Notes under the pieces: generated by a model
What the model was told of the DNA's origin: nothing
Database searches by the model: none
What the model saw: only the letters and a program-made list of their open reading frames with translations
In this document: positions 13,962 through 39,109 of the stretch, one piece after another
How the letters are laid out: every line of letters begins with the position of its first letter
How positions within the stretch are numbered: the stretch's first letter is position 1
Translations under genes and position numbers: made by a program
DNA from: a virus
Direction: 5' to 3' (one strand)
Virus record (IMG/VR): IMGVR_UViG_3300025413_000053
Span: 1 to 42,771 of that record
DNA length: 42,771 nucleotides

Positions 13962-15896
13962 ATGTCACTTACAACAAGAACTTTTAACGATTTCGATACA
14001 AACTCAACACCTCTTTCGGGAGATTACTTGGTTGGCGTCTGCTCAAATGGATCAGCTGAGTTTAAAACAACTGTCAGCGCTATCGGTCCTTTTGCTGAAG
14101 ACTCTTCTCATAATATTATTTCCAGAAGAGGAGATAACTCAGTTTCTCATACCGGTAATTCCACAATCGGTGGTGGTTGTCAAAACGCTATTAGTACATA
14201 TACCGGTATGTCCCAAGGTGATGTAATTGCTGGTGGTGCAAACAATTGCACCGATTACTATGGCGGTGGAGGTAATACTGTCAGTGGTGGTTATGCAAAC
14301 TGTATTGCAACTTTTGGTGGTGAAGGGGCTCCTACACTTTCTAACACAATTGGTGGCGGTGCAGGTAACTGTATTAGCACTTATTCTTTTGCAGGATTTA
14401 ATACAATTAGTGGTGGGGAAGGCAACTGTCTCACTGCTTATAGTGCATGCGGTAGTACAATTGCTGGTGGTGTTTATAACCACGCAAATAATTACGGTGT
14501 CAACGCAATCACAATTGGTGGAGGTGCTCATAATACAAACAGTGGCTATTATTGTTCAACAATTTCTGGTGGTGGATTTAATAAAGTTTACGACGGTTGT
14601 GCAACAATTGGTGGTGGTGCTGATAACTGCATTGAAGGTTACGCCGGTACAATTGCAGGTGGTAGAAACAACTATGTTAGCTATGGTCAGGCCGGTACAA
14701 TTGCTGGTGGACAAAACAACTGCGTCCACGGTGGCTCATCAACAGTAGGTGGTGGTCAGTACAACTTTGTTGGCGGTGAAGGTAGCAACAACGACGGTGG
14801 GGACTGCTGTATACACGCTGGTACAATCGCTGGTGGCGATCACAACCACGTCAGTGCTGATATTGCTACAATCGGTGGTGGCGAAGGTAACAGCGCTAGT
14901 GGGTATGCTTCAGTCGTTGGTGGTGGTCGTTGCAATCACACAAGAGATAGTGCTTACTCAGTAATTGGTGGCGGACAAAGCAACACAATTCACGTTAACA
15001 GCAACTCTTCAACAATTGGTGGTGGAAGTTCTAATCATATTTGCAATGGTGCTGATTGCGCAACAATCGGTGGTGGTTCTAATAATAATGCTTCTGGTGC
15101 TTATTCCTTCGTTGCTGGTGGTTCTAATAATAATGCTTCTGGATATACTTCAAACATAGCTGGTGGTAATAACAATAATGCTTCTGGTAACTATTCAGTT
15201 GTTTCTGGTGGTTATGGTAATACTGCTTCTGGATATACTTCAAACATAGCTGGTGGTAATGGTAATACTGCTTCTGGTGCTTATTCCTTCGTTGCTGGTG
15301 GTTCTAATAATACTGCTTCTGGATATACTTCAAACGTAGCTGGTGGTTGTGGTAATACTGCTTCTGGAGAGTATTCCAACGTAGCTGGTGGTTATCATAA
15401 TACAGCTTCTGGATATACTTCAAACGTAGCTGGTGGTTATTATAATACAGCTTCTGGATATACTTCAAACATAGCTGGTGGTTCTCATAATACTGCTGGA
15501 AATCAATATGACTCAATTGGTGGTGGTTGTAACAATTCAATAAACGTAGCAGTTATAACTAGTGCTTGTGGATATTCTCATATTGGTGGGGGAGCAAGTA
15601 ACTCAATTGATGGAGAATCTTCTGTAATTGGTGGTGGTAATAGTAATTGTATCTGTAGTGATTCTTATTATAGTTCAATTCTTGGTGGTCAAGGTAATTT
15701 AATAAACAGTATTAATAATTCTCACATTATTGGTTCTAATATTACTGCAACTACAACCGATACAACATATGTAAATAACCTAGAAGTAATACCAAACACA
15801 ATGGATGCTTCTTCTGTAATTTTAAGAAGTGCTAATGGATCTCGTTACAATGTATTTGTTACAAACTCTGGTACTCTTTCAAGTGTAGAAATTTAA
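13962..15896 (+). CDS. Tail fibre/adhesin with YadA-head-like beta-roll repeats
   Basis: 644 aa. After an ~45-residue N-terminus (DFDTNSTPLSGDYLVGVC) the protein is built of about 30 short repeats of the type 'I.GG..N...G..S', for example ASGYTSNVAGG and TIGGGADN. This is the pattern of YadA/Hia head left-handed beta-rolls, which trimerise. The C-terminus (SVILRSANGSRYNVFVTNSG) is a short cap found again in the relic at 15922-16047. Repeats in the last third are almost identical 45-bp DNA units, a likely site for copy-number variation. Function inferred: receptor-binding fibre. Confidence 0.75.
   Translation: MSLTTRTFNDFDTNSTPLSGDYLVGVCSNGSAEFKTTVSAIGPFAEDSSHNIISRRGDNSVSHTGNSTIGGGCQNAISTYTGMSQGDVIAGGANNCTDYYGGGGNTVSGGYANCIATFGGEGAPTLSNTIGGGAGNCISTYSFAGFNTISGGEGNCLTAYSACGSTIAGGVYNHANNYGVNAITIGGGAHNTNSGYYCSTISGGGFNKVYDGCATIGGGADNCIEGYAGTIAGGRNNYVSYGQAGTIAGGQNNCVHGGSSTVGGGQYNFVGGEGSNNDGGDCCIHAGTIAGGDHNHVSADIATIGGGEGNSASGYASVVGGGRCNHTRDSAYSVIGGGQSNTIHVNSNSSTIGGGSSNHICNGADCATIGGGSNNNASGAYSFVAGGSNNNASGYTSNIAGGNNNNASGNYSVVSGGYGNTASGYTSNIAGGNGNTASGAYSFVAGGSNNTASGYTSNVAGGCGNTASGEYSNVAGGYHNTASGYTSNVAGGYYNTASGYTSNIAGGSHNTAGNQYDSIGGGCNNSINVAVITSACGYSHIGGGASNSIDGESSVIGGGNSNCICSDSYYSSILGGQGNLINSINNSHIIGSNITATTTDTTYVNNLEVIPNTMDASSVILRSANGSRYNVFVTNSGTLSSVEI
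15065..15490 (+). repeat. Tandem 45-bp coding repeats in fibre gene
   Basis: About nine near-identical 15-codon units with core AGG.(N)NTASG.(Y)TSN(V/I). Nucleotide identity is far higher here than in the first part of the gene, which suggests recent duplication or conversion. Confidence 0.75.
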
Positions 15897-16211: not shown

Positions 16212-16448
16212 ATGTTAAACGTCGTAACACAACCTCAGCAAGTTGTTTCACTTTCCGGTGTAGAAATTCTCGCCGTTCGTGATTTGTTCGCTGAAAAGAC
16301 AATCATTGCACGTGTTAAGGGTCTTCCTCGTCCAGTAGTTCTCTGGAAGGGTGACGCTGAATACGCTGCTGCTGGTGTCTGGACAAATGAATCCGCTACT
16401 GCGCAAGCTGCTGCAGTTCTTTCATTATCCGCTGTTCCCTGGGCCTAA
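16212..16448 (+). CDS. Small Ala-rich protein, probably highly expressed
   Basis: 78 aa. An N-terminal beta-like part (VVTQPQQVVSLSGVEI) and an Ala-rich C-terminus (SATAQAAAVLSLSAVPWA) are visible. Like the 13164 protein it has C/G-rich codons, its own leader with the shared element, and a strong terminator, so it is probably an abundant virion component. No family recognised. Confidence 0.6.
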   Translation: MLNVVTQPQQVVSLSGVEILAVRDLFAEKTIIARVKGLPRPVVLWKGDAEYAAAGVWTNESATAQAAAVLSLSAVPWA

Positions 16449-16471
16449 TATCCTTCGGATATACAACATTA

Positions 16472-16498
16472 AAAGGGAGCTTCGGCTCCCTTTTTTTT
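16472..16498 (+). terminator. Strong UUCG-loop terminator
   Basis: AAAGGGAGC-TTCG-GCTCCCTTT is a 9-bp stem with a stable TTCG tetraloop, followed by eight T residues (16491-16498). Confidence 0.95.
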
Positions 16499-16503
16499 GT
16501 GTG

Positions 16504-16531
16504 TTGATAAACAAAAGCTATATACTATAAT
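16504..16531 (+). promoter_or_regulatory. Sigma70-type promoter of the glycosyltransferase operon
   Basis: TTGATA (16504-16509), a 16-bp spacer and TATAAT (16526-16531), directly after a terminator and 10 nt before the ATG at 16542. AAGGA lies in the short leader. This host-type promoter sits among late genes. Confidence 0.7.
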
Positions 16532-16541
16532 AAGGAATTAT

Positions 16542-17483
16542 ATGGGAGAAGAAAAGCTATACGTTGTAGTTCCGTATTTTAATCATACGAATGCATCAAT
16601 TAATAGAACTAATTTAGAGCTATGTTTGAAGAATCTTTATTTCTATCAACATGTTCGAGTTATTCTAGTAGAAGGTATTTGGAATAAAGAAGCTGAGCTC
16701 CCTAGCTTTAATGACCTAATTTATAGTCATCTCAAATTCGATTTACAAAGCCCCATATGGGTTAAAGAGAACTTGATTAATCTCGGACTTCAATCTGTAG
16801 AAGATTGGGAATACGCTTGTTGGCTAGATAAAGATATTCATTTTCTTAATCCTAATTGGGATATCGATACTATCAATAAACTAAAAGAGTATGACATTAT
16901 TCAGCCTTGGACTAGATTACAATTCTTAGATGACAACCATGAAGTAGATTTGATAGACAGGAACGGAGAAGGATCTGTATTTGTTAAGAACTATTATGAA
17001 TGTCCAGATCCTGATAAAGCAAGAGGCTTTCTATCATACGCAAAGGCAGCTGAATTAGGATATGGTCGTTCTGGTCATCCAGGCCACGCTTGGGCTATCA
17101 ACAGAAAGTTCTATGACAAGATAGGAGGGCTATTTGATAGATGTATTATTGGTGGAGGAGATAGTTTTTTGGTGGTAGCAATGGATGAAAAATTTTATAC
17201 GAATGGCTTGAAGCTACCTGAACTATATGGAGATTTTTTTCAAAAGTATGTTGATATATCAAGAGGCACAAAAGTTGGTTACATAAAAGGTTCTATAGTA
17301 CACTATAAACACGGAAAGCTTATTAATAGGAATTACTACGATCGTTATGATGTACTGTTTGACAACATTGATATAGAAAAAGATGTCATATACAATACTA
17401 ACGGAACAATAATGATTGGTAAGCCGGAGATTGAAAAGAAGATATTAGACTATTTCTACTCTAGAAAAGAACACGTTGCATGA
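16542..17483 (+). CDS. GT-A-like glycosyltransferase
   Basis: 313 aa from ATG 16542; an upstream TTG frame at 16497 lies in the terminator. KLYVVVPYFNH at 5-15 is the first Rossmann strand, WLDKDIHF at 94-101 supplies the DxD-type metal/nucleotide-sugar motif, and HPGHAWAINRKFYDKIGG followed by CIIGGGDS forms the acceptor/catalytic region. HYKHGK near the C-terminus is typical of related phage and viral sugar transferases. It would transfer a sugar from a nucleotide-sugar to an unknown acceptor. The stop overlaps the ATG of the ligase gene (ATGA), so the two are translationally coupled. Confidence 0.8.
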   Translation: MGEEKLYVVVPYFNHTNASINRTNLELCLKNLYFYQHVRVILVEGIWNKEAELPSFNDLIYSHLKFDLQSPIWVKENLINLGLQSVEDWEYACWLDKDIHFLNPNWDIDTINKLKEYDIIQPWTRLQFLDDNHEVDLIDRNGEGSVFVKNYYECPDPDKARGFLSYAKAAELGYGRSGHPGHAWAINRKFYDKIGGLFDRCIIGGGDSFLVVAMDEKFYTNGLKLPELYGDFFQKYVDISRGTKVGYIKGSIVHYKHGKLINRNYYDRYDVLFDNIDIEKDVIYNTNGTIMIGKPEIEKKILDYFYSRKEHVA

Positions 17484-18868
17484 ATCTAAGTTCAAACATA
17501 GAAGGCATACAATGGCCTTATATACAAACAGGGTATGCTGCAACATTAATGGCATTGCAAAGACAGTTCGAGGAAACTCAATGGCTGACCTCTGAAGAGC
17601 TTCTTAAAAATCAATTTAAACAGCTTACAGTTTTAGCTAATCATGCTATGACTGTTCCCTTTCATGCAAAGAACTTGAAAGAAGCTGGCTTTGTAGAAGG
17701 GCAACCAATGACACTAGACATATGGAATCGCTTGCCAACACTAAAGAGAGCTGATGTTAGAAATCTTAAAGAACAACTTCATGCTCCTTCTTATCCAAAG
17801 TCTTTTGGAGATAGTAATATGGCATATTCTGGAGGTTCAACAGGACAGCCAGTTGGTGTAAAGAAAAGTCGAATAGATGCTCTCATTTGGGAATCTTGTC
17901 ATATAAGAGAATTGATATGGAACAGAGCAGACACGAGTAAAGAAATAGCCAACTTTAGAGGACTTAGAAGAGAGTTTAGAGATCAAGTTTACAAGGAGCC
18001 AGACTCGATAATAGACAAATCAGGTATTGTACTGAAAAGTTGGAATCCTCCTGTTTCTTTTATAACACAAACTGGACGTATGGGACTTGTTGAGCCTAGT
18101 CTCCCTCTTCCTGAGCAAGCAGATTACGTCCTAAGGAGAAAACCATCGTACTTGCTTATGAGACCTGCTGGTCTAAGATTGCTTCTCTCTTACTTTAAAG
18201 AGAACAATATCAAACTAGATTTCATTCTGTCAGCTTGGACATTGAGCGAAGTTGTAGATAGTACTCTTCGAGATCTATGTTGGGAAGTATGTAACTGTCA
18301 TATATACAATAACTATACATCCAACGAAACAGGTTACATGGCACTACAATGTCCTGAAGGAATAAACTATCACACCATGGCTGAAGTTCATTATATTGAA
18401 GTAATAGATGAACAAGGTAATCATTGTAAGCCAGGAGAAATAGGAAAGGTCGTTGTTACTCCTCTCCATAACTTTGCTATGCCTCTTATTCGTTATGAGA
18501 TAGGAGACGAAGCTGAAGTAGGAGCTCCTTGCTCTTGTGGAAGAGGACTTCCATCTCTTACGAGAATTGTAGGTAGAACAGAAGACTACTTTTTAATAAA
18601 CGGAGAAAAGAAAAGAATGGATCTTGATCACTATAAGATTTGTGACATAGAAGCAGTAAGAGAATTTCAATTAATTCAAAAGACAAACGAAAGATTGGAA
18701 CTACATATGGTTGTAAGTCGACCGCTAAACGAAAAAGAACTAACTAGACTTACAACAGTAAAACAAAATTCTGTAGCAAGAGATCTTCAATGGGATCTTA
18801 TATACGTTGATCACATTAAAAGAACAGCTGCTGGTAAACTCCGTCAATTTATTTCAGAAATTATATGA
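17480..18868 (+). CDS. ANL-superfamily adenylating enzyme (PaaK/CapK-like)
   Basis: 462 aa, close to phenylacetate-CoA ligase length (~430-450). The phosphate loop SGGSTGQPVG is at 117-126. YNNYTSNETG near 272-281 is the A5-type motif, LIRYEIGDEAEV is the motif preceding the hinge, GRTEDYFLING follows, and the C-terminal AAGKLRQF (K453) supplies the A10 lysine. All catalytic elements appear present, so it should activate a carboxylate with ATP and perhaps pass it to a thiol or amine. CxCGRGLPS around 344-350 is typical of PaaK/CapK. Such an enzyme is unusual in a phage. Coupling to a glycosyltransferase suggests acylated-sugar chemistry. Confidence 0.8.
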   Translation: MNLSSNIEGIQWPYIQTGYAATLMALQRQFEETQWLTSEELLKNQFKQLTVLANHAMTVPFHAKNLKEAGFVEGQPMTLDIWNRLPTLKRADVRNLKEQLHAPSYPKSFGDSNMAYSGGSTGQPVGVKKSRIDALIWESCHIRELIWNRADTSKEIANFRGLRREFRDQVYKEPDSIIDKSGIVLKSWNPPVSFITQTGRMGLVEPSLPLPEQADYVLRRKPSYLLMRPAGLRLLLSYFKENNIKLDFILSAWTLSEVVDSTLRDLCWEVCNCHIYNNYTSNETGYMALQCPEGINYHTMAEVHYIEVIDEQGNHCKPGEIGKVVVTPLHNFAMPLIRYEIGDEAEVGAPCSCGRGLPSLTRIVGRTEDYFLINGEKKRMDLDHYKICDIEAVREFQLIQKTNERLELHMVVSRPLNEKELTRLTTVKQNSVARDLQWDLIYVDHIKRTAAGKLRQFISEII

Positions 18869-19050
18869 ACAACAAATCAAACTTCACAGACATAAGAATT
18901 GCTAATAGGGTTATCGACGAGTTTAGAGAACAGACACTCAGACAATCTGAAATAATCCATAAGCTTTCTAATGAGCTTTATATTCTTCAGCAAAAGAAAG
19001 ATCACTATGCTGATGTTATCTCAGAATTTAGAGATAAGATTACTTCTTAA
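18865..19050 (+). CDS. Small coiled-coil protein, third gene of the operon
   Basis: 61 aa, starting within the last codons of the ligase gene (ATGA overlap). The sequence is a heptad-rich helix (IIHKLSNELYILQQKKDHY). No family recognised. It may be an adaptor or regulator for the two enzymes, inferred only from coupling. Its 3' end overlaps the 3' end of the minus-strand gene at 19040 by 11 bp. Confidence 0.55.
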   Translation: MNNKSNFTDIRIANRVIDEFREQTLRQSEIIHKLSNELYILQQKKDHYADVISEFRDKITS

Positions 19051-39036: not shown

Positions 39037-39109
39037 GGGCTTATAGCTCAAAGGTTAGAGCAGAGGCCTCATAAGCCTTTGGTTCCAGGTTCAAGTCCTG
39101 GTGGGCCCA
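39037..39109 (+). tRNA. tRNA with CAT anticodon, more like tRNA-Ile2 than tRNA-Met
   Basis: 73 nt cloverleaf: acceptor GGGCTTA/TGGGCCC (two G-T pairs), D arm GCTC/GAGC, anticodon arm GAGGC-CTCATAA-GCCTT with anticodon CAT at 39070-39072, and T arm CCAGG-TTCAAGT-CCTGG. The discriminator is A39109, and CCA is not encoded. D-loop length and the TTCAAGT loop match E. coli tRNA-Ile2 (lysidine, AUA-reading) better than elongator tRNA-Met. An AUA-reading tRNA suits this AT-rich genome but needs host TilS. Confidence 0.9.

Follow-up and report, generated by a model that had tools for sequence, protein, structure and literature searches.

A promoter-bearing 'moron' in the genome of a T4-like phage may encode a two-enzyme glycan-acylation step, with a glycan on a fibre-like virion protein as the likeliest acceptor, a reading to which we assign a probability of roughly one half. 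The moron consists of genes for a glycosyltransferase (GT), an adenylate-forming ligase and a protein of 61 amino acids. It lies in a linear IMG/VR virus record of 42,771 bp (IMGVR_UViG_3300025413_000053), which as a whole is called the window below. PHROG scans of the window identified T4-like genes for a baseplate wedge protein, ribonucleotide reductase and a clamp loader. Since a second contig, IMGVR_3300025417_000028 (G003, 53,651 bp), covers 41.7 kb of the window at 99.9% identity, the two records represent one population. The cassette and its upstream context comprise the following features.

13962..15896, + strand: fibre-like protein with beta-roll repeats (IGGG/NTASG); upstream context and candidate target, outside the cassette
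16212..16448, + strand: UP78, a small protein of 78 aa, upstream of the trio in the window
16471..16494, + strand: intrinsic terminator, GGGAGC-UUCG-GCUCCC and U-run; 10-bp stem, UUCG loop, -15.1 kcal/mol
16504..16531, + strand: sigma-70-type promoter TTGATA-N16-TATAAT, 11/12
16542..17483, + strand: GT-A glycosyltransferase of 313 aa; DxD at D96/D98, GGGD207, H257
17480..18868, + strand: PaaK/NatL2-type adenylate-forming ligase of 462 aa; catalytic K453, putative zinc ligands C291/H298/C351/C353
18865..19050, + strand: charged protein of 61 aa, probably coiled-coil; kept in the related contig G001, absent from G002

Layout and genomic setting of the cassette

The first-pass annotation had described three genes joined by ATGA-type overlaps and read from a host-type promoter directly after a UUCG terminator, in the middle of late virion genes, and each element of this description was confirmed. 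The overlaps lie at 17480-17483 (GT and ligase) and 18865-18868 (ligase and 61-aa protein), the 11/12 promoter follows the terminator, and the flanking genes encode the fibre-like beta-roll protein on one side and a structural protein of the virion (PHROG 1645) on the other. The cassette therefore has its own promoter and terminator amid unrelated late genes, as expected of a moron. The terminator is located upstream, insulating the cassette against the preceding genes, and none was found at the cassette end. On the + strand of the window, five sigma-70 sites scoring at least 11/12 were observed against 0.96 expected, and none of 400 simulated 48-bp gaps held such a promoter. Besides the cassette promoter, three of these sites fall among small genes at 40.3-41.8 kb; a tRNA-Met (CAT) gene at 39037-39109 is located near this region of small genes and near-consensus promoters. 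The GT start was assigned to the ATG at 16542, with AAGGA at 16532; a TTG at 16497 was rejected as the start because it sits inside the terminator and promoter region. No nucleotide-sugar or acyl-precursor genes are present within the cassette, and inspection of the open reading frames (ORFs), together with PHROG scans of the main ORFs, identified neither a flagellin gene nor sugar biosynthesis genes in the window. The beta-roll protein, a fibre or adhesin by appearance, has a weak match to the Pfam family LbR_Ice_bind, and its homologue in G001 (680 aa) is encoded immediately upstream of the G001 GT. Gene neighbourhood, shared by G001 and the window, makes this protein the favoured carrier of the proposed glycan.

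Early expression, as suggested by the host-type promoter, is a poorer fit to a late role in modifying virions. In the main rival explanation, the same chemistry would be performed on a host surface polysaccharide or LPS, with early expression altering the receptor and excluding superinfecting phages. The cassette's sigma-70 promoter resembles the promoters found in G001 and before the small non-structural genes at 40.3-41.8 kb, which agrees with such a role, as does the location of bacterial relatives of the ligase in polysaccharide-type loci, which contain GTs, a flippase-like gene and a TupA-like ATP-grasp. However, no lysogeny genes were recognised in the phage, the cassette is placed between virion genes and adjoins a fibre-like gene, and some related phage GTs likewise cluster with fibre-like genes. 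We consider a host-surface target possible but rather unlikely.

The encoded proteins

The GT matched no named family in Pfam, PHROGs or NCBIfam. It belongs to an unnamed, mostly viral family with at least 141 matching stretches in IMG/VR; among cultured phages, a relative was found only in Xanthomonas phage XaC1 (30% identity). Structure prediction, which the first-pass annotation had proposed for both enzymes, gave an AF2 model of the GT with a mean pLDDT of 91, and Foldseek matched this model to chondroitin polymerase, the fucosyltransferase WrtF and beta4GalT1. By its predicted structure the protein is a GT-A enzyme in which the DxD motif and metal-binding residues are present. The invariant positions in an alignment of 19 rows include E44, W73, K75, E76, D96, D98, G181, W184, D207 and H257. 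Substitution analysis indicates that purifying selection acts on all three cassette proteins, with a dN/dS of 0.19 for the GT. Several related phage GTs adjoin genes that were named by inspection as fibre-like or as sulfotransferase-, methyltransferase- or other GT-like.

The ligase is, as far as motifs and model can tell, an apparently intact adenylating enzyme of the PaaK/NatL2 type, and its activity is predicted accordingly. The ANL motifs listed for it in the first-pass annotation (SGGSTGQP, TSNETG, the hinge region, here GRxxD, and K453) are conserved in its relatives, together with RYEIGD, and the ATP/AMP-binding set (A3 SGGSTG, A5 E283, A7 D343, hinge GR-x-x-D and Lys453) is invariant or near-invariant across 18 rows. 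The best curated family is DVU_1553 (NF045666, 6e-31), where the ligase scores 107.6 of the 300 bits required, followed by the NCBIfam models for FlxY, PaaK and BagE/FevW. The score for phenylacetate-CoA ligase PaaK (TIGR02155) is 40.4 bits against a cut-off of 646.3, and the ligase falls below every NCBIfam equivalog cut-off, including those of TIGR02155 and NF041878. To our knowledge, members of the DVU_1553 family have not been found paired with a GT.

An AlphaFold2 model of the ligase built from 18 aligned sequences (pLDDT 87.4) is PaaK-like. Its nearest Foldseek matches are PaaK1, BT_0428, NatL2, AjiA1 and ClxA (E-values down to 5e-28), and a profile search with the ligase recovers these same structures from sequence. 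The best structural matches, PaaK and BT_0428 (PDB 2y27 and 4r1l; TM mostly 0.7-0.8), share the motif set of the phage enzyme but only 17-21% of its residues, and their pathway context is absent from the phage. NatL2, AjiA1 and ClxA (PDB 6siw, 6wuq and 9s3l) share the ANL fold (TM ~0.6), the ATP motifs and the C-terminal catalytic Lys at ~20% identity; unlike them, the present ligase is phage-borne and in an operon with a GT. NatL2 is a PaaK-family enzyme whose product is an ester and not a thioester of CoA, and it has the zinc ligands C248/H254/C308/C310 (PMC7204872). These correspond, in the same Cys3His order, to C291/H298/C351/C353 of the phage ligase, which may thus form a zinc site. The dN/dS of the ligase is 0.16.

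The gene for the 61-aa protein is real, since its product is 91% identical over 57 aa in G001 with a dN/dS of ~0.045. It is inessential to the GT-ligase pair, as one relative (G002) does without it.

Distribution in phages and bacteria

A search for the same trio in other phages, also proposed in the first-pass annotation, recovered all three genes in contig 3300032236_001514 (G001; identities of 68% for the GT, 79% for the ligase and 91% for the 61-aa protein). In contig 3300032223_002232 (G002, 169,763 bp) it recovered the ligase and a GT cut by the contig end, without the 61-aa gene. GT and ligase are thus adjacent in three phage populations, beyond which no further close trio was found in IMG/VR. 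The two findings that the annotation had named as fatal to its proposal, a ligase without ATP binding and a trio never conserved together, were not encountered. In G001 an identical GGGAGC-TTCG-GCTCCC terminator directly precedes the GT and is followed by an 11/12 promoter, TTGACA-N16-TAAAAT. Because terminator and promoter are kept while the gene upstream differs (the beta-roll fibre in G001, UP78 in the window), the regulatory region accompanies the cassette. UP78 itself is upstream of the cassette in the window and downstream of it in G001 and G002.

More distantly, viral contigs L028 and L081 encode a GT of the same family whose immediate upstream neighbour is a ligase, shorter and diverged, so the pair is kept in diverged phages whichever gene comes first. 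In both contigs the ligase is preceded by a methyltransferase-like protein of 149 aa, which also accompanies a ligase, without a GT, in phage contig L091. A methyltransferase-like gene directly 5' of the ligase was likewise observed in a Verrucomicrobium (L182 3527-4378), and the weak homology of its product to that of phage L028 (2423-2869; BLASTP 3e-5) suggests a second conserved partner of the ligase. Human-gut records labelled as phage were rejected as phage relatives of the ligase, their surroundings resembling bacterial polysaccharide loci.

For GT and ligase alike, the nearest cellular relatives are encoded on one and the same contig of a Spartobacteria metagenome-assembled genome, CAIKYN010000142 (29.9 kb, GC ~54%), which was found with a mixed profile; scanning bacteria with phage-only patterns gave no hit. 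This contig holds six ligases, three intact GTs and one broken, stop-containing GT copy (L096 3202-3863), and one of its GTs overlaps a ligase by ATGA. It also encodes a TupA-like ATP-grasp, an AroE-like protein, a radical SAM enzyme, methyltransferases and a sulfotransferase that is 66% identical to one of phage G002. In the trees of ligase and GT alike, the phage copies group with those of Spartobacteria (supports 100/100 and 100/98), which argues that the pair is old; the grouping of the phage ligases with one of the six Spartobacteria paralogues has a support of only 90/84. The ligase was not found in the other searched genomes of the same family as the Spartobacteria genome. Across wider samples of Verrucomicrobiota the ligase is rare and has no GT nearby wherever its surroundings were read. 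Of 388 genomes, six contain the GT, and at least two of these copies are in prophage-like regions. One Verrucomicrobiota relative pairs a DVU_1553-type ligase with a DVU_1556-like methyltransferase. Lone Verrucomicrobiota ligases were also seen convergent with a gene for a small secreted-looking protein (L177 3779-4324, L182 5860-6546 and L181 2205-2735); two of these three proteins are PEP-CTERM-like.

Functional coupling of GT and ligase is not obligatory, since the ligase occurs without a GT nearby and the GT is mostly without a ligase in the ~70 viral loci. The two genes might accordingly be functionally unrelated, the ligase serving as an auxiliary-metabolism aryl- or acyl-CoA ligase and the GT acting separately, brought together by chance or co-transfer. 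It fits this explanation that the ligase follows a methyltransferase-like gene both in one Verrucomicrobium and in another lineage of phages. We nevertheless judge it unlikely, as the pair is found in diverged phages in either order and in the Spartobacteria cluster, and the two trees agree.

Proposed function and relation to known systems

The acylated or amide-linked sugar pathway proposed in the first-pass annotation finds partial support, in the conserved GT-ligase unit. Encoded on one transcription unit and kept together, the two enzymes are most simply read as performing acyl- or amide-sugar chemistry. The ligase would convert a small carboxylic acid and ATP into an acyl-AMP and transfer the acyl moiety, with or without CoA as an intermediate carrier, to an amine or hydroxyl on a sugar. 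Before or after its acylation, this sugar would be attached to the growing glycan by the GT-A enzyme. The 61-aa protein could act as a scaffold or as an optional partner. The acceptor glycan would most likely be carried by the phage's fibre-like virion protein, with a host surface glycan in second place. A further-reaching reading, possible but rather unlikely, is a mobile phage cassette dedicated to acyl- or aminoacyl-sugar ligation and kin to the amplified bacterial cluster, which would place an acylated or amide-linked sugar on the phage's own fibres, a virion glycan modification chemically undescribed before.

The cassette might instead produce a small, diffusible acylated or amide-linked saccharide, similar to a natural product, during infection. 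The nearest solved relatives of the ligase do include the natural-product ligases NatL2, AjiA1 and ClxA, and the Spartobacteria contig, with its six ligases, AroE-like protein, radical SAM enzyme and methyltransferases, resembles a biosynthetic cluster. The phage cassette, however, comprises two enzymes only and no export or resistance gene was recognised, making this very improbable. Least likely of all is the DNA target that the first-pass annotation had entertained, in which the pair would equip a modified base with an acylated sugar. Hypermodification of DNA by phage GTs is known from other systems (cited in PMC12619734), but no match to the thymidylate synthase/dCMP-hydroxymethylase family PF00303 was found in the three related records (G001, G002 and G003, each incomplete), which disfavours such a target, the cassette is away from replication genes, and the predicted GT fold is nearest to glycan-building GT-A enzymes.

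Bacterial precedents for combining such enzymes in protein glycosylation exist. In Aeromonas and Enterobacteriaceae, islands for flagellin glycosylation combine GTs with LuxE/AMP-dependent acyl ligases, whose putative role is to add an acyl component to protein-linked glycans (PMC7874193, PMC4875605). These islands are likened to the phage cassette by gene content, and differ from it in being bacterial, in comprising many genes and in having flagellin as the target. Virion glycosylation and glyco-morons are known from phages, and the systems discussed in PMC12619734 resemble the present cassette in their phage-encoded GT, tail or fibre neighbourhood and self-contained accessory gene. Unlike the present cassette, they are presented in the passages considered without mention of an adenylating ligase. 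The first-pass annotation knew of no described phage system with this pairing; its statement is uncontradicted in the open-access literature covered, which yielded no description of a phage GT together with a PaaK-like ligase, but the bacterial islands are analogous. With glyco-morons and islands of LuxE/AMP-ligases and GTs already known, the combination of a phage GT and a PaaK-like ligase is a new variant. GTs are common in phages, and one partnered by an adenylate-forming ligase would extend the glycans that phages make to acyl chemistry. Reconstitution of the small phage pair needs two proteins, and the six ligases and three intact GTs of the Spartobacteria contig are natural variants for probing the use of acids and sugars.

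Further genes of the related phages were noted in passing. By inspection, G002 (L137-L145) contains two arrays of GT- and methyltransferase-like genes, at ~15-24 kb and 104-111 kb, which together with a sulfotransferase at 77.5 kb form an unusually large glycan-modifying repertoire for a T4-like record. Both G002 (L087 2279-3274; PF00709, 5e-81) and G001 (L146 19756-20769) encode a phage adenylosuccinate synthetase, which keeps the GDEGKGK motif as PurA does.
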